This document shows positions 39,509 to 50,314 of a stretch of 64,000 nt of DNA, piece by piece. The translations under genes and the position numbers were made by a program. Source of the DNA: Streptomyces sp. 840.1. Its GTDB lineage: Bacteria; Actinomycetota; Actinomycetes; Streptomycetales; Streptomycetaceae. The stretch is from the NCBI RefSeq assembly GCF_003751445.1, contig NZ_RJUU01000002.1, forward strand, positions 620,001 through 684,000, read 5' to 3'. Positions within the stretch are counted from its first letter, which is position 1. Each line of letters begins with the position of its first letter. A model generated the notes under the pieces. That model had not been told where the DNA came from, did not search any database, and was given only the letters and a program-made list of their open reading frames with translations.

Positions 39509-40027
39509 TCAACCGGGCTCGGAGACCTGACACGCAGCCGGCCGGGCGGAGGTTGCGGCGGGCGGCAGCAGCGGTCCGCACTCCCACTGCTGGAAGATCA
39601 GCCTGGTCTCGACCCGGGCCACTTCGCGGCGCGAGGTGAACTCGTCCAGCACCAGCCGTTGCAGATCGGCGGTATCGGTGACAGCCACGTGTACCAGATA
39701 GTCGTCCGGACCGGTCAGATGGAACAGAGCCCGGGACTCGGGCAGTGTCCTGATCCGTTCGACGAACGGGCCGATGAGCTCCCTGCGGTGCGGCCGGACC
39801 TGCACCGACAGCAGCGCCTCCAGGCCGCGTCCCATCCTGGCCGGGTCCAGCCGCAGCTGGTGGCCGAGGATGACGCCCGTGCGCCGCAGCCGCGTGACCC
39901 GGTCCAGACACGTCGACGGAGCGACCCCGACCTCGGCCGCGAGATCGCGGTAGGTGGTTCGGGCATCGTTCTGCAGCAGGCGCAGAATGTGCAGATCCAC
40001 CGTGTCCAGAGCGACAGAATCGGTCAT
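39509..40027 (-). CDS. Lrp/AsnC family regulator next to methionine gamma-lyase-like gene
   Basis: A 172-residue regulator with an N-terminal winged helix (VDLHILRLLQNDARTTYRDL, LAAEVGVAPSTCLDRVTRLR) and a RAM domain (LFHLTGPDDYLVHVAVTDT). Lrp-type MdeR controls methionine gamma-lyase in Pseudomonas putida, so this protein likely controls the divergent PLP enzyme, 59 bp away. TACGTT at 40039-40034 followed by 6 bases and ATG suggests a leaderless transcript. Confidence 0.92.
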   Translation of the reverse strand: MTDSVALDTVDLHILRLLQNDARTTYRDLAAEVGVAPSTCLDRVTRLRRTGVILGHQLRLDPARMGRGLEALLSVQVRPHRRELIGPFVERIRTLPESRALFHLTGPDDYLVHVAVTDTADLQRLVLDEFTSRREVARVETRLIFQQWECGPLLPPAATSARPAACQVSEPG

Positions 40028-40086
40028 CTGCCGAACGTAGCACGGCTCCTGGCGCCGATCACCCGGCAGCTGTTCAGAGTGGTGAC

Positions 40087-41343
40087 ATGGACACCGAAGC
40101 CTCGATGGCGCCCTCGACGACAACCCGGTCCAGGGCGCTGGCCACCGAAGCAGTGCACGCAGGACGCGACGACCTCGCGGCCCTCGGCCTGCACGCCCCG
40201 CCGATCGACCTGTCCACCACCTACCCCTCGTACGACTCCAGGGCGGAGGCCGGGCGGATCGACTCCTTCGCCGCCACCGGTGCCCGGCCCGACGGGCCGC
40301 CGGTCTACGCCCGGCTCGACAACCCGACCACCGCCCGGTTCGAGACGGCGCTGGCCCGGCTCGAAGGGACCGCGAGTGCCGTGGCGTTCGCCAGCGGCAT
40401 GGCGGCGCTCACCGCTGTCCTGCTGGCCCGCGCGAGCATGGGACTGCGCCATGTGGTGGCCGTCCGCCCGCTGTACGGCTGCAGCGACCATCTGCTCGGC
40501 GCCGGACTGCTCGGTACCGAGGTGACCTGGACCGACCCGGCGGGCATCGCCGACGCGATCCGCCCCGACACGGGCCTGGTGATGGTGGAGACGCCCGCCA
40601 ATCCGACGCTCAAAGAGGTGGATGTCCGGGCGGTCGCGCACTCCTGCGGCTCCGTACCGCTGCTCGTCGACAACACCTTCGCGACACCGGTTCTCCAGCG
40701 GCCCGTCGAGCACGGCGCGCGGATCGTGCTGCACAGCGCGACGAAGTACCTCGGCGGCCACGGGGATGTGATGGGCGGAGTCGTCGCCTGCGACGAGGAG
40801 TTCGCCGCCCGGCTGCGCCAAGTGCGCTTCGCCACCGGCGGCGTGCTGCATCCGATGGCCGGATACCTGCTGCTGCGCGGTCTGTCCACGCTGCCGGTAC
40901 GGGTACGGGCGGCGTCCGCGAGCGCCGCGGAACTCTCCCGCAGGCTGGCCGCCGACCCGCGGATCGCCCGCGTCCACTACCCGGAACTGGGCGGCGCGAT
41001 GGTGTCGTTCGAGGTCTTCGGGGACCCGCACCGGGTCATTGGCGCGGTACGGCTCATCACGCCCGCCGTCAGTCTCGGCAGCGTGGACAGCCTGATCCAG
41101 CATCCCGCCTCGATCAGCCACCGCATTGTGGATGAAGGAGACCGGCAGGCGGCGGGGGTCGGTGACCGGCTGCTGCGCATGTCGGTCGGCCTGGAGGACG
41201 TCGAGGACCTCTGGGCCGATCTCTGCCAGGCGCTGAGCGGCGGGGAGCCCGCCGTGCGTCAGGGCTTCAGTGACGTGCCTGCTCGTGCGGGGGCAGGGCG
41301 AGCGGGAGGGACCGTTCCGGAGTCGCGCTCAGCCGGGCGGTGA
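40087..41343 (+). CDS. trans-sulfuration family PLP enzyme (methionine gamma-lyase-like)
   Basis: A 418-residue Cys/Met metabolism PLP enzyme. The PLP Lys is in SATKYLGGHGD near residue 222. The residues YARLDNPTTARFE and AVAFASGMAALTAVLLA are the usual PLP-phosphate region. PLYGCS near residue 121 keeps the Cys that follows the conserved Tyr in methionine gamma-lyases (YGCT in the P. putida enzyme), favouring a methionine gamma-lyase over a cystathionine enzyme. Start is ATG 40087, possibly 40105. The last 77 bp overlap the convergent GNAT fusion gene. Confidence 0.85.
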   Translation: MDTEASMAPSTTTRSRALATEAVHAGRDDLAALGLHAPPIDLSTTYPSYDSRAEAGRIDSFAATGARPDGPPVYARLDNPTTARFETALARLEGTASAVAFASGMAALTAVLLARASMGLRHVVAVRPLYGCSDHLLGAGLLGTEVTWTDPAGIADAIRPDTGLVMVETPANPTLKEVDVRAVAHSCGSVPLLVDNTFATPVLQRPVEHGARIVLHSATKYLGGHGDVMGGVVACDEEFAARLRQVRFATGGVLHPMAGYLLLRGLSTLPVRVRAASASAAELSRRLAADPRIARVHYPELGGAMVSFEVFGDPHRVIGAVRLITPAVSLGSVDSLIQHPASISHRIVDEGDRQAAGVGDRLLRMSVGLEDVEDLWADLCQALSGGEPAVRQGFSDVPARAGAGRAGGTVPESRSAGR

Positions 41344-42751
41344 TCACCAGCGTGCCTTCCTCGATCTGGTAGTCGAGCGGCAGCGAGAGCGCGCGCATGG
41401 CGGCGACCATGCCGGTGTTGGACGCCTGGGTGACGGCGTAGACGCTCTCGCAGCCGGCCTCGACGGCCAGCGCCACCAGACGGGCCAGCAGCTCGGAGCC
41501 GATGCCCCGGCGCTGCCAGTCGTCCTCCACGAGCAGGGCGACCTCGGTCTCGTCGCCGTCCCAGAGCAGATGGCCGAGCGCGACCAGCCGGCCGGAGGCC
41601 GTCTGCACGGCGAGGGTGCGGCCGAAGCGCGGGCTCAGCAGGTGGTCGAGATAGCGGTCGGCGTCCCGGACCGGGCCGTGGTAGCGCAGCCGCAGAGTCT
41701 GCTCCGAGCAGCGGTCATGCATGGCGCGGGCCGCTTCGAGGTCGGCGTGGTCCGCCCGGCGCACGGTGATCGCGTTGCCCTCGGGCAGGGTGAGTACGTG
41801 CTCGCTGCGCGGGACGCGGGGGCCGAGCCGGGCGTCGAGCTCGACCAGGGCGCGGGCCCTGGCGAACTCCGTTGGCGTGAACGGGAGATAGGGCCGCTCG
41901 ACCGTGATGACGCCGCCCGAGGGGTCACGCAGCCGCATCACCGTCTCCTCCAGTACCCCTTCGACGGGCGCGGTCTCACCGGTGGCGCGTCCGGTGACCG
42001 AGACGGCGGGCAGCGAGTGGATGGTGCACCGGCCGAGCAGCTGTCGCAGGGCGAGCGGGAGTTCGGCGGCGTCCAGCGCGGTGCGGGTGGCGAGGCCGAG
42101 CACCCGGGTCGGGGCATCCACCAGGTCATGGGCGTCGGCGCGCTCGATCCAGGTGGAGCTGCCGCCGGCGGCGGAGATCGCCCGGGTCAGCCGGGACGCC
42201 GGAAGTGCGGCGGGGGCGCGCAGCAGGAACTCGTCGACGGTGCCCTGCGCCAAGGGGTGCGTCTGCAGGGTGAGGATGTCGATCCGGTGCTGGGCCAGCA
42301 CGTTGCAGAGCGCTGCCAGGCTGCCGGGGGCGTCCCGGACCGTGGTGCGCATCCGCCACAGGGCCGTCTCCCCTGAATCGGTGCCGGGTGCCGGGTGCGG
42401 CACGTGGCCGTGGGCCGGGGCCTGGCCCGGGTCCGGCGCGTGGGCCGGGCCGGGCGAGGCGACGGCTGTCCTCGGCTGCGGGGCGGCGGAGGCGTCGAGA
42501 GCCGGCGTCCCGTCGGACTCCGGCGGTGGCGCGTGGCTGTGCCGCCGTGCCCACCAGGTGTGGAACGCGGCAGTCGCGGTCAGCGCCAGGGCCGATGCGA
42601 TGAGCAGATACGGTCCGTCCGGCTGGTGTCCGATCAGGTTGGCGATCGCGTCGGCGACGGCGACCGCGGTGAACAGGGCGGCGAGTTCGATGAGATCCCG
42701 ACGCCAGTGGTGGGGGCGGCGGGCGCTCTTGGCGGATGTCACATCAGTCAT
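41267..42751 (-). CDS. membrane-ACT-GNAT fusion protein
   Basis: A 494-residue protein with an unusual domain order. Residues 20-70 contain two hydrophobic helices (LIELAALFTAVAVADAIANL and YLLIASALALTATAAFHTWW), followed by a Pro/Ala/His-rich linker. An ACT-like domain spans about 135-215 (TVRDAPGSLAALCNVLAQHR, then IDILTLQTHPLAQGT). The C-terminal GNAT domain begins near 325 and holds the acetyl-CoA loop DDWQRRGIGSELLARLVALA. It may sense an amino acid and acetylate a target at the membrane. Substrate unknown. Confidence 0.85.
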   Translation of the reverse strand: MTDVTSAKSARRPHHWRRDLIELAALFTAVAVADAIANLIGHQPDGPYLLIASALALTATAAFHTWWARRHSHAPPPESDGTPALDASAAPQPRTAVASPGPAHAPDPGQAPAHGHVPHPAPGTDSGETALWRMRTTVRDAPGSLAALCNVLAQHRIDILTLQTHPLAQGTVDEFLLRAPAALPASRLTRAISAAGGSSTWIERADAHDLVDAPTRVLGLATRTALDAAELPLALRQLLGRCTIHSLPAVSVTGRATGETAPVEGVLEETVMRLRDPSGGVITVERPYLPFTPTEFARARALVELDARLGPRVPRSEHVLTLPEGNAITVRRADHADLEAARAMHDRCSEQTLRLRYHGPVRDADRYLDHLLSPRFGRTLAVQTASGRLVALGHLLWDGDETEVALLVEDDWQRRGIGSELLARLVALAVEAGCESVYAVTQASNTGMVAAMRALSLPLDYQIEEGTLVITARLSATPERSLPLALPPHEQARH

Positions 42752-42894
42752 GGCTTCACTGTGACGGAGCGGTGTTGCCTGATCACGAACGCCTTGTGAC
42801 CGATGGGTTAAGTGTGGATCTAGTCACCTATCGTCGCTTTTTGGCCGCTTGGCCGCTTGGCCGGGGCGCGGCCGAGCCACGCCCCGGCCGGGGC

Positions 42895-45561
42895 TCACGC
42901 AGCCTCCTCCTTGCCCCAGGCGGCCTGCAGCCGTGCCGCCTGCCGGACCAGTTGCGTCGACCCGCCGCGCGCGGCCGTCTCGGCGAGACCGGCTATCGGC
43001 CCGGCTCCCTGCGGGCCGCAGCGCTCCGCGCACTGCGCGGCCACGGCCAGCAGATCGCTCAGTCCCCGGGGAGCCCGCTCACGGGACAGCAGTACGGGCA
43101 GCACCGGGAGCAGCACCGAGAGAACGGTCCGGTACGCGCCGGTCTCGGCGGCGGCAGCCACCGAGCTCGCCAGCCGTGCGGGTTTCACCAGCTCCCGGCC
43201 GATGAGCGTGGTCAGCTCGCCGCCCAGGAGCGCCGCATCGAGCTGTCCCCGGGCGGCGAGGGTGAGCAGGGTGTCCACGGCCGACAGCCGGTCCTCCGGA
43301 TAGCGGGCGCCGAGCGCGTACCCCAGGGCGAGGTGGATGGCGCCGCCGGCGGGTGCCGCGGTCTCGACGAGGGCGGGCAGGGGTGCCGCGCTGCCGCGCT
43401 GGTCCTCGGCGCATGTGGCGACGAAGGGCAGCAGCCACGCCGCCAGCGTCTCACTGTCCTCGGGCAGTACGGCTGTCCACTGCGGAGAACCGCCGCCCCA
43501 GTGGTAACAGGTCTGCGGTCCCGGGGTGTGCGGGCGTCCGAGCCAGTGGAACGCGCGGGGAAACTCCTGCTGGATGACCAGGCGTTCCCTGGTGGCCAGC
43601 AGGACGCGCCGCGCTCCGGCCGCGGACTGCTGCAACCAGCCCCGGGCCGGGGGCGCTTCGGCCTCCACATGGTGGCGGAGCACGGGTGCAAGCGGTTCGT
43701 CGGCCCGGATCCAGGCGGCCAGCCGGTCGCCCTGCGCGGTGCCGAGCGCGGCGGCCCGGTCGGCGGCTTCCTCGCCGCCCGTGCGCCGGACACGGAGCAG
43801 GGCCTGCGCGAAGTCGACGGGGCCGGGCTCGGCCCGCAGCTCACGGTAGCGGTGGAGCCGGTCGACGAGCTCCATCGGGTCCAGCGCTCCGGTGTGCCAG
43901 GTCGGGGTGGCCAGCAGGAAGGGCAGCTCCCCGGTCCGTATCGCGGCAGCGGCCTCCCACAGCCGTGCGTGCGTCACCCCGTCGAGCGCGGCATGGAAGC
44001 AGGCGCCCGCAGCCGCCGACCGGGCCCGGTTCTCGGCGAAGGCATGCTCCGGGGCCTGTTCGAGCAGTGACGCCACGACGACGTGCAGGCCGTCATGGCG
44101 CCTGATGAACCGCCAGTCGATCTCGCTCTGCTGACCGGCCTCGGCCCACCACACCCCGGCGAGCGCCAAGCGCAGCGCTTCGACCAGGGCAGTGCGGTTC
44201 GTACGGGCGCACCGGATGAGCCCGTCCAGAGTCCGTTCGAACTCGGGGACCTGCCGCGAGCCGGTCCGCACCAGGGCCACCACCTCCTCGACGAGCTCGG
44301 CGGTGTTCTCCGTGGCGGGGGAGAGGCGCCTCGGGACGGGGGCCGGTGGCAGGATCTCCTCGTGGACGTCACCGGCCTGCCCGTCGTCGAGCAGATCACC
44401 GAACAGGGCGACGGCTGCCGGGCGGTGCACCGGTCCCAACTGCGCTGCCCTATCGGCCAGTTCGCTGCGAACGTCGGCCGGGGTCGAGGGGAGGTGGCGG
44501 GCGGTGAGCTTGAGTGCCCGCTCCTGGATTCCGATATCCGGGTGCCCGAACGCCTCGCCCACCACGGGCAGCAGCTGTCCGGCAGCCGACGGATTCCGGC
44601 GCAGCACCTTTCCCAGCAGCACCAGTTGAGCACGGACGAGCTTCTTCTCCGTGCGGAAGAGCACCGGACCCGAGGCGTCGGCCAGCTGGGCGACGGACAG
44701 CCTGCCGTGACCGTCCAGCCGGGCGAGCACCTCCTGCGCGTGTCCGGCGACCGGCGAGGGGCCGTCCGCGGCCATGGCGATCCAGTCGGAGGTCCGCTCG
44801 GCCTCCTCCTGGGCGGTGGGTTCGAGACCGCGCAGCAGCAGCGTGCAGAAGCGCAGGTCGGAGGTCTTCCCGCCGCGCAGCATGCGGGTGACGCAGCGTT
44901 CCAGCAGGACGGTCCGCTCAAGCAGTCCCTCCGCCGCGAGGGTGGTCAGCGCGGACGGCCAATTGTCGTCCGGGTCCGGGTATCCGGCCCAGGCCACGGT
45001 GGCGGGCAGCTCCGGCATGTCCAGAAGATGTGGCGCCAGGACGCCGAGGTACGGTTCGGCGCGCAGGAGAACGGTCAGCGGCGGGGCCGGCCGCTGCCGC
45101 CACCGTGCGGCGTTGATGCGTTCGGCCCAGCCGCGGACCATGCCGTCGGAGGCGGGCAGCGGACAGTCCGCCATCCGCACCAGTTCGACGACGAGCCGGT
45201 ACTCCGCCTCGGAGTCGACGGAGCGGGCGGCCAGCCGGTGGGCGAGATCGGCGAGCCAGGCCGGATCGCGGTCGGCCAGCGCCTTCAGCACCCACGGATA
45301 GGGCGAATGCTCCCACTCGCGCAGTTCCCGGGCGCCGATCCAGGCCGCACAGCCAGCGGCCCCGGCATGGCAGCCGGCACCGGCCACCAGGACGGCCTTC
45401 AGGGTCCTGGTGCGCTCGCGCCACTCCCGGTCCCGCGCCTCCTTGCGCAGCGTCTTCAACTCGGCCAGGGCCAGCCTGCGCTCGGCCCGGTCCAGCGGTG
45501 CCACCAGGCCGGGCACGTCCCGATGGCGGCCCTCGCGCACGGCGGCGAGCAGCTCCTTCAT
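42895..45561 (-). CDS. DUF6493 family protein (HEAT-like helical repeats)
   Basis: An 888-residue soluble, strongly alpha-helical protein with no catalytic motif that I recognise. The N-terminus (MKELLAAVREGRHRDVPGLV) matches what I recall of the actinobacterial DUF6493 family. Several Leu/Ala-rich helix pairs around residues 100-420 suggest HEAT-like repeats used as scaffold. The ATG at 45561 overlaps the end of the SWIM zinc finger gene by 4 bases, so the two are translationally coupled. No ATPase gene is adjacent. Confidence 0.82.
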   Translation of the reverse strand: MKELLAAVREGRHRDVPGLVAPLDRAERRLALAELKTLRKEARDREWRERTRTLKAVLVAGAGCHAGAAGCAAWIGARELREWEHSPYPWVLKALADRDPAWLADLAHRLAARSVDSEAEYRLVVELVRMADCPLPASDGMVRGWAERINAARWRQRPAPPLTVLLRAEPYLGVLAPHLLDMPELPATVAWAGYPDPDDNWPSALTTLAAEGLLERTVLLERCVTRMLRGGKTSDLRFCTLLLRGLEPTAQEEAERTSDWIAMAADGPSPVAGHAQEVLARLDGHGRLSVAQLADASGPVLFRTEKKLVRAQLVLLGKVLRRNPSAAGQLLPVVGEAFGHPDIGIQERALKLTARHLPSTPADVRSELADRAAQLGPVHRPAAVALFGDLLDDGQAGDVHEEILPPAPVPRRLSPATENTAELVEEVVALVRTGSRQVPEFERTLDGLIRCARTNRTALVEALRLALAGVWWAEAGQQSEIDWRFIRRHDGLHVVVASLLEQAPEHAFAENRARSAAAGACFHAALDGVTHARLWEAAAAIRTGELPFLLATPTWHTGALDPMELVDRLHRYRELRAEPGPVDFAQALLRVRRTGGEEAADRAAALGTAQGDRLAAWIRADEPLAPVLRHHVEAEAPPARGWLQQSAAGARRVLLATRERLVIQQEFPRAFHWLGRPHTPGPQTCYHWGGGSPQWTAVLPEDSETLAAWLLPFVATCAEDQRGSAAPLPALVETAAPAGGAIHLALGYALGARYPEDRLSAVDTLLTLAARGQLDAALLGGELTTLIGRELVKPARLASSVAAAAETGAYRTVLSVLLPVLPVLLSRERAPRGLSDLLAVAAQCAERCGPQGAGPIAGLAETAARGGSTQLVRQAARLQAAWGKEEAA

Positions 45562-46931
45562 CGCGCACCCGCAGTGACCGCCGCGCCCCGGCGGGTCATC
45601 CGGACCGCCAGCGCGTGTTTGCACGGACCGCGCCGGCCCCGGTAGTCGGCCCACCACTGGCAGGTGCAGCTCAGCGCACCGCCGCTCTCGCGGACCTGGT
45701 AGCGGCGGTCGCCGGAGGCCACGGACGCCAGGTCGCCGTCCAGGGTGACCGCGCCCGCCCCGGCCAGCTGCCGTGCGGCCACCAGGCGCGGGTTGTGCCG
45801 CTCGGCCCGGTCCGCGTCGTACGGCAGCTCGCGGTGGAAGTAGGCCGCGTCCGCGAGGTCGTAGCCCACGCGGCCCGCCGTCCCCAGCCGGACGAGCGCC
45901 GCCCGCACCCTTTCCACCGGCAGGCCCGACTGCTCGGCCAGATCGGCGGGGTCGATCCTCGGCTCCCAGGCGAGCAGCACGGAGATCAGCTCGGCGTCGG
46001 CTGCGGCGTCGTCGGTGGCGAGGGACTCCAGCACACCGCCCTCACCGGAGAAGCCTCGGGAGGCGTCGGGCGACAGCGTCAGAGTGAGCCGCATGCCCGG
46101 CAGCACCACCTCCCAGGCGCTCGCGGTGGCGGTGCCTTCCGCCACCGGGCCGTACACCCGCAGCGCCGTCGCGTGCCGGAGGACGCGCTGCAGGGTGACC
46201 AGCCGCTGCGGCCCCGGCAGACAGACGGCCCCCGGCGTCGGCCGCGTCGTAGGCCGAAGGGTCTTTCCGGCGGGAACCACCCACTGGGCGCCCAGCGATG
46301 CCGTGCCCGAGGAACGGGGCAACGACCGCAGGAAGCGGACGGCCTCGGCCGCCGGCAGCTCCGCCCGCAGATCGAAGGAGGCGGAGGCGACCTGTGCCTC
46401 GGCGAAGCCCCGCAGCCACCGGTCCGGAAGCGGGACCTTCTTCTCCACGACGCGACCGCCCAACGTGGTGACAGCCATCTCCTGCGGGCCCACCCGCAGA
46501 TGCAGCGGGTCGTCGCCCGCTATCCGCGAAAGCGCCTCGCGCAGCGGATTGTTCACATCGACATTGGTCGTGCCGTGCCCCGTCTCCGCCCCGTCCAGGC
46601 CGTCCCGCAGCACGTCCAGACGGGCGTACACCCCGCAACAGCCGGAGAACGACTCGAAGCGCAGCCGGTCGCCGTTCCCCGTCACCACCGGGTCCAGCGA
46701 GGAGAACAGTGTGCGCCGGTAATATCGCGCTGCCGCCACGTCCGCCACCGCGAGCAGGCCGCGGGCCGCGATGCCGGGGGAGCTGAGGAAGCCCTCGAAG
46801 AACCGGGGGTGGGGCTCGGCGCCGCGCGGCGTGAGACCGCCCGCTGTCTCCAGGCCGAGCAACTGCCCCGCCTGGGAAGACTGCAGAGCGGACGGACGTG
46901 AGTAGGCCAGCGCCTGTACGGATCGGGTCAT
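45558..46931 (-). CDS. SWIM zinc finger family protein
   Basis: A 457-residue protein whose C-terminus carries the SWIM motif C-x-C-x(n)-C-x-H as CTCQWWADYRGRRGPCKHAL near residues 424-443. SWIM domains bind DNA or proteins. The long N-terminal region is alpha/beta and of unknown function. Upstream in-frame starts are rejected because the family-like sequence starts at MTRSVQALAYSRPSAL (46931). It is the first gene of a two-gene operon with the DUF6493 gene. Confidence 0.88.
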   Translation of the reverse strand: MTRSVQALAYSRPSALQSSQAGQLLGLETAGGLTPRGAEPHPRFFEGFLSSPGIAARGLLAVADVAAARYYRRTLFSSLDPVVTGNGDRLRFESFSGCCGVYARLDVLRDGLDGAETGHGTTNVDVNNPLREALSRIAGDDPLHLRVGPQEMAVTTLGGRVVEKKVPLPDRWLRGFAEAQVASASFDLRAELPAAEAVRFLRSLPRSSGTASLGAQWVVPAGKTLRPTTRPTPGAVCLPGPQRLVTLQRVLRHATALRVYGPVAEGTATASAWEVVLPGMRLTLTLSPDASRGFSGEGGVLESLATDDAAADAELISVLLAWEPRIDPADLAEQSGLPVERVRAALVRLGTAGRVGYDLADAAYFHRELPYDADRAERHNPRLVAARQLAGAGAVTLDGDLASVASGDRRYQVRESGGALSCTCQWWADYRGRRGPCKHALAVRMTRRGAAVTAGAR

Positions 46932-47069
46932 GAGGAAAACGGTAGGACCCACCACTGACAACGGGCTCGCAGCGGCGTCGGCGCACCCGTGTACGCAACG
47001 CCGGCCGGACAGCCGTGCGGCCGCGCGACGAGTGGAAGGGCGGATGGGGGTGAGGCGAACGGACTCCGC

Positions 47070-48530
47070 TCAGCCCAGGCCCTGTTGGGCCTCGGCCAGC
47101 AGGTGAACGCCCCGTTCGATGTCCACCGGTGCCAGTTGCGCGTATCCCAGTACCAGGCTCACGGAACGGTCCGGGGGACGCACGGTCCCGCATTCGCTCA
47201 TCAGCCGCAGCGCGATTCCGGCGTCGGCGGCGCGGGCGGCGAAACCGGCCTCGGGCCCGTACCGTTCGGGCAGCCGGGCGATGATGTGGAGTCCTGCGGC
47301 GATGCCGCTGACCTCGGTACCGGGGAAGTGCTCGGCCAGCGCGGCGGTCAGGGTGTCGCGGCGTGCGCGGTAGGCGCGCTGGCAGCGCCGCAGCTGACGG
47401 TCATAGCCTCCCCGGGCGATGAAGTCGGCGAGCACGGCCTGGTCGACGGCGGGGTTGCCGAGATCCATCGTGCGTTTGCGGTCGACGATCTCTTCCGTCA
47501 TCGACGCCGGTGCCAGCAGCCACCCCAGCCGCAGACCGGGTGCCAGCGATTTGCTCACCGACCCGGTGTACACGACATGCTCCGGATCCAGCCCCTGCAG
47601 CGCTCCGACGGGGGCCCTGTCGTAGCGGAAGTCGCCGTCGTAGTCGTCCTCCATGATCACCCCGTCCACGTCCCTCGCCCAGTCCAGGAGCTGACTGCGG
47701 CGGGCGGCGGAGTAGGCGATTCCGGTGGGGAACTGGTGGGCCGGGGTGGTCATCACGGCACGCACCCGGGAGCGCACGAGCGGCTCCGTGGCCAGGCCCT
47801 CGTCATCGAGCGGCAGCCCGGTCGTGGCCAGGCCCGTCGAGGCGAACAACGTGGCGTGTTCGGGGCTTCCGGGATCCTCGACACCGACGGTCCGCATCCC
47901 GCGTTCGCGCAGCACGAACCCGAGCAGCGTCGTCGCCTGCGCCACTCCCGAGCAGACCAGCAGTCGCTCGGGATCGGCCACCACCCCGCGCCGCCTCGCC
48001 AGCAGGGCGGCCAGCGCGACCCGCAGCTCGGGCAGCCCACGTGGATCCGGATAGCCCAGCGCGCTGTGCGGCAGCCTGCCGAGCACCGAACGGTGCGCGG
48101 CGGCCCAGGCGCTGCGCGGAAAGAGTGAGAGGTCCGGCGTACCCGGCCGGAAGTCGACGAGAGTGCCGGGACCGCGCGGCGCGAGGTCGCGGGCCCGGTT
48201 CGCCGCGGCACGGGCCGATCCGCTCACCCAGGTCCCCGCCCCGCGTCCGCTGTGCAGATAGCTCTCGGCGGTCAGCTGTTCGTACGCCTCGGTGACCAGG
48301 CCCCGCGAGACGCCGAGATCGGCAGCGAGCTCACGACTGGACGGGAGCCGTGTCCCCGGTGTCAGGCGGCCGGAGCGGACGGCGTCGCGCAGCGCCGACT
48401 GGAGAGCGCGACCGCGCCCGCGCGCCGGAGCGGACGCTGCCGGAAGCAGCAGCTCCCAGGCGGCGGAGAACGCTTCCCGGTCGCTGCCCCCGCCACTGTC
48501 CGGTACTGAATTGGTCCCCGAAGACGTCAT
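47070..48530 (-). CDS. MocR/PdxR-type GntR regulator with aminotransferase domain
   Basis: A 486-residue fusion of a winged helix-turn-helix (GRALQSALRDAVRSGRLTPG followed by TRLPSSRELAADLGVSRGLV) and a class-I aminotransferase fold binding PLP. The Lys site is in YTGSVSKSLAPGLRLGWLL. The protein is a transcription factor using PLP as effector rather than an aminotransferase. It diverges from an EamA exporter, 47 bp away, which it probably controls. Confidence 0.93.
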   Translation of the reverse strand: MTSSGTNSVPDSGGGSDREAFSAAWELLLPAASAPARGRGRALQSALRDAVRSGRLTPGTRLPSSRELAADLGVSRGLVTEAYEQLTAESYLHSGRGAGTWVSGSARAAANRARDLAPRGPGTLVDFRPGTPDLSLFPRSAWAAAHRSVLGRLPHSALGYPDPRGLPELRVALAALLARRRGVVADPERLLVCSGVAQATTLLGFVLRERGMRTVGVEDPGSPEHATLFASTGLATTGLPLDDEGLATEPLVRSRVRAVMTTPAHQFPTGIAYSAARRSQLLDWARDVDGVIMEDDYDGDFRYDRAPVGALQGLDPEHVVYTGSVSKSLAPGLRLGWLLAPASMTEEIVDRKRTMDLGNPAVDQAVLADFIARGGYDRQLRRCQRAYRARRDTLTAALAEHFPGTEVSGIAAGLHIIARLPERYGPEAGFAARAADAGIALRLMSECGTVRPPDRSVSLVLGYAQLAPVDIERGVHLLAEAQQGLG

Positions 48531-48541
48531 GGAAGTGGACC

Positions 48542-48570
48542 TTAAACCGGACCGCCCGGCTCCATAGCGT
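48542..48570 (+). promoter_or_regulatory. promoter with MocR-like direct repeats, leaderless EamA transcript
   Basis: TTAAAC (48542-48547) and TAGCGT (48565-48570) are 17 bp apart. The ATG at 48578 lies 7 bases after the -10, so the mRNA would be leaderless. Two copies of GGACC, at 48537 and 48549, flank the -35 with 12-bp periodicity, fitting the direct repeats known for MocR regulators. Confidence 0.6.
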
Positions 48571-48577
48571 TGGCACC

Positions 48578-49768
48578 ATGAATACGACCTCTCTGCGCGG
48601 CGCTGTGCTCGCCGCCTTCGCCTGCACCCTGGTGGGCGCCTCCTTCACCGCCAACAGTCTCCTCGGCGACTACCCGTACGCCGGTGGCCAGGCGCTGCGC
48701 TACGGCCTGGCAGCCCTGCTGCTCCTGCCTCTGCTGCGGCGGGGCGGGGCGCCCCCGCCCACTGCCACGCTGCGCACGCTCACCGGCCGCCAGTGGGCAC
48801 GGCTGGCCCTGCTCGCGGCCGTCGGAATGGTCGGCTTCAACCTGGCCGTACTGACCGCCGAGCAGAGTGCGGAACCCGCAGTTCCGGGAGTTTTCGTCGG
48901 CTGCGCGCCGATCGTCGTGGCAGTGCTGGTGCCGTTGCTGGACGGGCGCCGGCCGACGCGCGCCGTGCTCTACGCAGCGGGACTGGTCGCCGCGGGCGCC
49001 TTCACGGTCCAGGGCTGGGGCCGAACCGACCTGGCGGGCATCATCTGCTCCGTCGGCGCACTGGCAGGCGAGGTCGGCTTCGCGGTCATCGCCGTACCCG
49101 TCCTGCGTCCGCTCGGCCCGCGGCTGCTGTCCGCCACGGTCTGTGTGATCGCCGCCGTGGAGTCGGTCGTACTGGGCCTGCTCCTGGACGGCGGAGGCTT
49201 CCTGCCGATGCCCTCGGGCGGTGAGGCGGTGGCGCTCCTCTGGCAGGCCGCCGTCGTCACGGTCATCGGATTCGTCTGCTGGTACATGGGCCTGCAGCGC
49301 ATCGGCGCCGAACGCGCCACGCTCTTCTGCGGCCTGGTCCCGGTCTCCGCAGCGCTCACCGCACCTCTCGTCGGCACCGGTTCCTACGGTGTCGCGCAGG
49401 CCGCCGGCAGCTGCCTGGTCGGGCTGGGCGTGGCCCTCGGGTCGGGCTTCCTGCGGCGGAGCGGGTCCGTGCCCGCGACGGATTCAGCGGCTGGTGTCGA
49501 GAATCACCCGGGCCACGAGAGCGGGGTCGTCGTTCATCGGGACATGGCCGCAGCCGGGCAGCCGGACCAGCCGGGCGCCGGGGACAGTGTGCTTGGCCCG
49601 GATTCCCTGACGGCGAAGGAGCAGCCGGTCGCCGCTGCCCCAGGCGATGGATATCGGCAGGCCCGGCACATCGTCGGTGAACATGACATCACGTCCGGCG
49701 GCCAGCGTCTGGTCGAAGCCGGTCGCCTCGCGCAGGGCGAGCGTCTCGAGCACCGCAGCCTCCGGTGA
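48578..49768 (+). CDS. EamA/DMT family transporter with overlapping C-terminal extension
   Basis: A membrane transporter with ten hydrophobic helices in two EamA repeats (MNTTSLRGAVLAAFACTLVG to about residue 290). The transport part should end near GSGFLRRSGS at about 297. No stop codon appears there; the frame continues about 95 residues as polar sequence antisense to the convergent alpha/beta hydrolase gene. Either the extension is translated or a stop has been lost. The gene begins at a predicted leaderless ATG and is paired with the divergent MocR regulator. Confidence 0.84.
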   Translation: MNTTSLRGAVLAAFACTLVGASFTANSLLGDYPYAGGQALRYGLAALLLLPLLRRGGAPPPTATLRTLTGRQWARLALLAAVGMVGFNLAVLTAEQSAEPAVPGVFVGCAPIVVAVLVPLLDGRRPTRAVLYAAGLVAAGAFTVQGWGRTDLAGIICSVGALAGEVGFAVIAVPVLRPLGPRLLSATVCVIAAVESVVLGLLLDGGGFLPMPSGGEAVALLWQAAVVTVIGFVCWYMGLQRIGAERATLFCGLVPVSAALTAPLVGTGSYGVAQAAGSCLVGLGVALGSGFLRRSGSVPATDSAAGVENHPGHESGVVVHRDMAAAGQPDQPGAGDSVLGPDSLTAKEQPVAAAPGDGYRQARHIVGEHDITSGGQRLVEAGRLAQGERLEHRSLR

Positions 49769-50314
49769 ACGGCGTCCGGGCCGGGCGTAGATGGTGCTGG
49801 TCAGTACCGTCCGCCCGGCCGGGGTGCGGGAGAGCCGCTCTATGAGCGGCAGCGGCATCGAACCGGCGGCCAGCCGCATCGCGCGCAGCGTGCCGAACGC
49901 GTAGCGCCGCTCGCCCTCCGTCCAGAAGCCGGCGGGCGAGAGCGCCGTCACCGAGCGCACGAGCTTCATCCGACCCAACTCCAGGGCCAGCAGCCCGCCG
50001 AGCGAGTTGCCCGCCACATGGGGTCGGTCCAGGCCCAGCGCCTCGCAGAAGGCCCCCAGCAGCGGTGCCACGGTCGTCAGGTCGTACGGGACGCCGTCGG
50101 GCTGCGCGGGAGAGGCGCCGAAGCCCGGCAGGTCGACCGCGATGACGTCCCGTTCCACGGCGAGGACGGGGATCACCGGGTCCCAGGCCTGGCGGTGGTG
50201 GCCGATGCCGTGGAGGAGCAGCAGCGGCTCCCCGGCCCCCGTCCGCTCGTACGCGACGGACACGGTGCGCGGCCCGCGCGGTGAATCGACGGTGAACGAG
50301 GCCGTGGTTGCCAT
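49484..50314 (-). CDS. alpha/beta hydrolase
   Basis: A 276-residue serine hydrolase of the alpha/beta fold. The oxyanion strand LLLLHGIGHHRQAW is early, the nucleophile elbow is GNSLGG, and the catalytic His is in GCGHVPMNDDP. The family includes peroxidases, esterases and C-C hydrolases; substrate unknown. ATG at 50314 is preceded by AGGAGCG. It diverges from an ECF41 sigma factor gene, about 153 bp away, and its 3' end is overlapped by the EamA frame. Confidence 0.92.
   Translation of the reverse strand: MATTASFTVDSPRGPRTVSVAYERTGAGEPLLLLHGIGHHRQAWDPVIPVLAVERDVIAVDLPGFGASPAQPDGVPYDLTTVAPLLGAFCEALGLDRPHVAGNSLGGLLALELGRMKLVRSVTALSPAGFWTEGERRYAFGTLRAMRLAAGSMPLPLIERLSRTPAGRTVLTSTIYARPGRRSPEAAVLETLALREATGFDQTLAAGRDVMFTDDVPGLPISIAWGSGDRLLLRRQGIRAKHTVPGARLVRLPGCGHVPMNDDPALVARVILDTSR

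Follow-up and report, generated by a model that had tools for sequence, protein, structure and literature searches.

Closest Described Systems and Relationship to Type XIII Retrons

The closest described counterparts of the gene pair analyzed here are the type XIII retrons, whose name and composition are taken from the PADLOC models: presumably a reverse transcriptase (RT), a SWIM zinc finger protein, and a large helical-repeat protein. Two further points of comparison are the MoxR-DUF5682-DUF5691-SWIM gene clusters and, at the level of protein fold, the sliding clamps of the PCNA type. The pair is located in a 64,000-nucleotide stretch (hereafter, the window) of the genome of Streptomyces sp. 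840.1 (8.84 Mb, 4 contigs; contig NZ_RJUU01000002.1, positions 620,001 to 684,000). It consists of the SWIM gene (45558..46931, minus strand, ATG at 46931, stop ending at 45558, 457 aa) and a partner gene (42895..45561, minus strand, ATG at 45561, stop ending at 42895, 888 aa). The pair may be best explained as a conserved two-gene module, free of RT, whose sister is the SWIM-containing module found in type XIII retrons; we regard the chances of this explanation as about evenly balanced.

According to the PADLOC analysis, the SWIM protein of the window matches the SWIM_XIII model at 173.6 bits. Alignment of window-type with retron-type SWIM profiles in hhalign covered 438 columns (probability 100, E 1.3e-48), and 22 residues were invariant in all 20 SWIM proteins compared, including D80-P81, E93, S96, G120-T-T-N123, D125, E163, P169, W172, and the four ligands of the SWIM finger. 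Full-length common ancestry of the retron and free SWIM proteins is strongly supported by these sequence comparisons. In the unrooted tree constructed from 44 rows, 35 free rows were separated from nine retron-clade rows at 100/100.

Loci of the retron type were found in the phylum of genome G424 (Planctomycetota), where 13 of 149 genomes match SWIM_XIII and eight places score 490–793 bits, versus approximately 170 bits for SWIM proteins of the window type. At seven of these eight places, a frame matching the RT profile lies just downstream of the SWIM gene on the same strand; the eighth (L174, a 5.7-kb contig) showed no RT frame. Such a frame also adjoins the SWIM gene on a Methylobacterium bullatum plasmid (L038). 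In this plasmid locus and in loci L168 and L169, PADLOC gave RT_XIII at 542–584 bits and SWIM_XIII at 612–704 bits, and the best match upstream was HEAT-ARM_XIII or WGR_XIII. The window pair resembles a type XIII retron in having a full-length homologous SWIM protein next to a large helical-repeat protein, but it has no adjacent RT, its SWIM protein belongs to a separate clade, and its partner is of the DUF6493/7824/7825 type and lies downstream of the SWIM gene, whereas the retron partner lies upstream.

The SWIM_XIII match could also mean that the pair is a type XIII retron broken by the loss of its RT. This appears very improbable, as the free and retron rows split in the tree, both genes are under purifying selection in Streptomyces, pairs with no adjacent RT occur in several phyla, and the partner differs and sits on the other side of the SWIM gene. 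No RVT_1 match was found in the Streptomyces sp. 840.1 genome, and the RT profile searched over loci L001–L137 gave a single match, in the M. bullatum plasmid, itself a type XIII retron. A degenerate retron was rejected on the RT-free genome, the RT-free pair loci, and the tree split. For an msr/msd non-coding RNA, the Rfam search of positions 40000–50000 at gathering cut-offs, made without a dedicated type XIII RNA model, gave 0 matches.

Several related loci are worth recording. One genome (G448) carries both an RT-free pair (L092) and an RT-linked type XIII-like locus (L173). The retron partner in L168 (2343-8699, 2118 aa) combines a WD40-like propeller with HEAT repeats, and the SWIM protein of the same locus shows a weak C-terminal WGR match. 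The SWIM_XIII model is also matched in Methanosarcina acetivorans, used as a control genome, so by sequence the family may reach archaea.

Predicted Structure of the SWIM Protein

The SWIM protein seemingly has a three-part structure. In its predicted model, residues 43–290 (46062..46805, minus strand) show the full two-domain topology of a PCNA/sliding-clamp fold, and the clamp match recurs against a second structure library. The following region (codons 307–360, 45852..46013, minus strand) is a putative winged helix, indicated by weak Pfam matches and by helices in the model. The SWIM zinc finger occupies codons 415–447 (45591..45689, minus strand) and exceeds the Pfam cut-off (PF04434, 20.9 bits; cut-off 19.6); its CxC...CxH ligands C422, C424, C437, and H439 are all invariant in 20/20 proteins compared. 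A sliding-clamp fold that is followed by a winged helix and then by the zinc finger is a strongly supported prediction for this protein.

The predicted two-domain fold is the feature that the protein would have in common with PCNA, the bacterial beta sliding clamp, and viral processivity factors. Identity to PCNA/clamp structures is approximately 12%. Unlike PCNA and the beta clamp, the window protein carries a winged helix and the SWIM finger in addition to this fold, and it has no Pfam clamp match; no clamp family appeared among the Pfam matches of 20 SWIM-family members at E up to 1. A sequence search of known structures returned weak winged-helix matches only. The topology of PCNA includes an interdomain connecting loop, and judged by eye from the strand order, its position is taken by helix 170–183 in the predicted model. 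A PCNA fold serves as a damage sensor outside replication in the eukaryotic 9-1-1 checkpoint clamp; the likeness to this clamp is by analogy only, and the window protein has its zinc finger fused in one chain and no known loader.

The same architecture could belong to a regulatory or protein-handling pair, in which the winged helix and SWIM finger would bind an operator or a protein and the clamp would act as a dimerization or binding platform. The position of the winged helix before the finger, the failure to find a catalytic domain, and the mild charge of the ring-facing helices are in line with such a role. The full two-domain clamp topology and the kinship with a retron component suit DNA transactions better, and we consider a regulatory pair distinctly improbable.

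Partner Protein and Conservation of the Pair

The original prediction described a coupled unit of two overlapping genes, one encoding a zinc finger protein and the other a long helical scaffold labeled DUF6493. The coupling was confirmed, as the SWIM stop and the partner start have 4 bases (ATGA, 45558..45561, minus strand) in common and the genes are contiguous in 79/80 genome loci. Also supported were a finger that probably binds nucleic acid and a long helical scaffold, the partner being predicted as nearly all-helical. The label was justified only in part: the Pfam analysis placed the partner below the cut-off for DUF6493 (PF20103, 20.0 bits; cut-off 25) and likewise for DUF7825, and above that for DUF7824 (PF25148, 35.5 bits; cut-off 27.5). 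Partner relatives in L036 and L037 do exceed the DUF6493 cut-off. Neither protein matched NCBIfam above cut-off. The prediction had held that the pairing would be accidental if the genes were rarely neighbors elsewhere, and the neighborhood analysis clearly showed the opposite. Overall, its interpretation was partly supported, and it contained neither the type XIII retron link nor the clamp fold.

An ARM/HEAT-like solenoid is strongly supported as the predicted structure of the partner. The sequence search of known structures gave weak matches for this protein, mostly of the HEAT type; FANCI/FANCD2 appeared among its weak solenoid matches. Clamp-binding (PIP-like) motifs were also sought in the partner; the one match across 37 sequences was taken as chance.

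Each species was represented by one genome in the scan, and the query combined a SWIM-finger pattern with an alignment of a varied set of SWIM proteins. Since these searches score few candidates per genome, absences are soft. In total, 581 SWIM relatives were confirmed. The pair counts use the best 80 of the 581, which were reached through the SWIM gene and come from at least five phyla (Pseudomonadota, Planctomycetota, Actinomycetota, Myxococcota, and Candidatus Melainabacteria, with some less well placed bacteria). Among these loci, 75 have a same-strand partner starting –60 to +400 bases from the SWIM stop, counting one at a contig end where only the first part of the partner is visible (L061), and 43 of these 75 have the identical 4-base overlap. 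The other arrangements are a partner that follows a SWIM gene with a split frame (L075), an upstream partner on the same strand (L081), and divergent upstream partners (L054 and L087); a single locus (L066) showed no partner. More than one partner match was noted at ten loci, representing tandem genes in some cases and split frames in others. The contiguity in 79/80 loci and the overlap common to 43/75 downstream partners indicate that the pairing is not due to chance.

The other neighbors were compared at 88 loci (L036–L123), and no family occurred in more than 16 of them. The two largest clusters were found at 16 and 15 loci in mixed positions, partly reflecting Actinomadura synteny, and the second cluster lies 2.9–5.2 kb behind the SWIM stop at 12 of its 15 loci. 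No third conserved gene was found among these neighbors; an occasional third gene is possible.

SWIM relatives were present in 9 of 72,556 plasmid records. A Diaphorobacter plasmid (L036:7986-14319) contains a SWIM gene followed by two tandem partner genes with a 4-base overlap at every junction; this unit is directly downstream of a site-specific integrase gene, and a VapC-type toxin-antitoxin pair is nearby. A Streptomyces cadmiisoli plasmid (L039:7992-9494) encodes a divergent SWIM homologue with a long branch in the tree and no partner, which is perhaps decaying or repurposed. Carriage of the pair as phage cargo was also considered and rejected; comparison of an Asticcacaulis SWIM protein with viral contigs found no relative, and the phage records gave none.

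Flanking Genes and Comparison with the MoxR-Type Cluster

The flanking genes encode an ACT+GNAT protein (41267-42751) on one side of the pair and a MocR/PdxR-type regulator (47070-48530) on the other, in agreement with the earlier observation that neither MoxR nor VWA genes adjoin it. That observation had led to the description of the pair as a reduced or distinct system, of which "distinct" holds and "reduced" does not. The genome of Streptomyces sp. 840.1 carries a MoxR-type cluster elsewhere (L195, C1 1206001-1222000, ~1.21 Mb), with genes for SWIM, DUF5691, MoxR-like AAA_5, and DUF5682 proteins next to a succinyl-CoA-ligase-type gene; a 519-aa open reading frame at the VWA position gave no Pfam match, leaving VWA unconfirmed. 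Both systems place a SWIM gene beside that of another DUF protein, and the argument for a reduced MoxR/VWA/SWIM system is that a SWIM gene adjoins one for a helical protein. However, the SWIM proteins belong to different families with only the 41-column SWIM motif alike, the cluster includes an AAA ATPase, and DUF5691 shows no profile link with the partner. A reduced MoxR/VWA system was rejected on the separate cluster and the motif-only similarity, and we give it a negligible probability.

Evolution of the Pair in Streptomyces

Among 121 Streptomyces genomes, a SWIM match was detected in 51 and a partner match in 49. Long SWIM places (>800 bases) numbered 47 in 46 genomes, and the partner adjoins 46 of these 47, with the exception of G221. 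The adjacency script alone, which left out the weakest partner rows, gave 44/47; G299 and G273 proved adjacent once N-terminal partner pieces were counted. Three genomes (G230, G235, and G301) contain partner pieces only.

The sites were compared in author-chosen samples of 20 pair-positive sites, 20 pair-negative sites fetched through the ACT+GNAT gene, and seven pairs for the ratio of nonsynonymous to synonymous substitution rates (dN/dS). The flanks of the window were matched at 16/20 pair-positive loci, and the pairs of L183, L192, L193, and L194 sit elsewhere. At all 20 pair-negative sites, neither gene is intact and the other flanking genes are kept; decayed remnants were seen at three of them (of the partner in L212 and L214, and of the SWIM gene in L213). 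The persistence of the flanks, together with these remnants, indicates that an ancestor already had the pair at this site and that it has since been lost repeatedly as a unit. In the window, 138 bases (46932-47069) separate the PdxR regulator from the SWIM gene. In most syntenic Streptomyces loci examined, this interval is filled by a gene for a PhoD-like phosphatase (L199:11266-12843; one relative scanned), which was not counted in the unit because it persists at many sites without the pair.

Mean identity to the window across the 16 syntenic loci was 49% for the partner, 82% for the SWIM protein, and 75–88% for seven neighbors, so that the partner is the fastest-changing gene of its neighborhood. 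The dN/dS values in the seven pairs were 0.27–0.48, 0.10–0.20, and 0.09–0.30, respectively. The rapid change of the partner fits a role in recognition, and relaxed constraint as well.

These data bear on whether the pair could form a replication-stress or DNA-repair complex, in which a checkpoint- or repair-like clamp would act on damaged host DNA with the solenoid as a scaffold, the module having been borrowed by retrons. A clamp fold with a winged helix and a SWIM finger, the stable chromosomal site, the well-conserved SWIM protein, and FANCI/FANCD2 among the weak solenoid matches all suit such a role. Most Streptomyces genomes lack the SWIM gene, and the pair is lost as a unit, which would be odd for housekeeping repair, as would be the fast change of the partner. 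A repair function appears possible, but rather unlikely.

Proposed Function

The pair is proposed to encode a DNA-engaging clamp/winged-helix/SWIM protein with a solenoid scaffold, most likely serving in anti-phage defense; we would put this functional assignment as a whole near the midpoint between doubt and confidence. Phage defense itself, to which we assign somewhat less than an even chance, is preferred to a function in repair or replication stress, chiefly in view of the kinship with retrons, the patchy distribution, the loss as a unit, and the fast-changing partner. The occurrence of SWIM relatives on plasmids belongs to the same defense-like pattern, as do the higher dN/dS values of the partner.

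In the proposed mechanism, the SWIM protein would engage a structure in DNA that is being replicated, is nicked, or is invading the cell. It could do so in ring form or, in the manner of viral processivity factors, as a monomer. The partner would bind the SWIM protein through its solenoid, and its fast-changing surface might recognize a part of the phage or host replisome or restrain the complex until a signal is received. Engagement would then block or flag the bound DNA. In retrons, the same core may be wired to an RT/multicopy single-stranded DNA (msDNA) sensor, a role that the partner would take in the free pair. More tentatively, a form of clamp-based immunity is possible, in which a hitherto unrecognized PCNA-fold/winged-helix/SWIM core common to type XIII retrons and the RT-free multi-phylum pair loads on invading replicons or mimics their clamp, with the solenoid or RT/msDNA as an interchangeable trigger.

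A number of observations weigh against these proposals. The clamp fold of the SWIM protein is a prediction, its extension to retron SWIM proteins follows from homology, and the four ring-lining helices of the predicted clamp are only weakly basic. The partner shows no detectable sequence homology with HEAT-ARM_XIII or WGR_XIII in hhalign (probability 1.1 and 2.0) and no match in PADLOC, where five relatives likewise gave no HEAT-ARM_XIII or WGR_XIII match; the solenoid architecture common to the partner and the retron HEAT-ARM/WGR proteins may be convergent. Some RT is encoded in 36/50 other pair-bearing genomes, so an RT could act in trans there; around the pairs of those 50 genomes, the stretches examined gave no match to the RT profile. 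No catalytic effector domain was found in the pair, and no SWIM relative in 50,697 phage records. At 16/20 chosen loci, the pair occupies one ancestral, stable site with genes of metabolism and regulation around it, outside a defense island; this chromosomal stability and the missing effector domain speak against defense in particular. Finally, dN/dS stays <1.

A search of the open-license literature found no mention of DUF6493, a scope from which priority cannot be claimed, and listed no dedicated study of type XIII retrons. The same literature contained nothing joining retrons with WHSWIM or with WGR domains and nothing linking bacterial retrons, SWIM, and PCNA-like or sliding clamps. Among the matches listed for anti-phage and retron literature, there was no mention of PCNA-like, sliding clamp-like, DUF7824, or SWIM zinc finger proteins.

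A PADLOC SWIM_XIII match alone does not indicate a retron, because the model also matches a large RT-free clade. The pair looks like an undescribed DNA-handling or defense unit. The predicted clamp fold, in a family annotated only as "SWIM zinc finger", would provide a structural handle on both type XIII retrons and the multi-phylum pair. It leads to the testable predictions that the protein loads on DNA, that it competes with the replicative clamp, and that its specificity depends on the partner.

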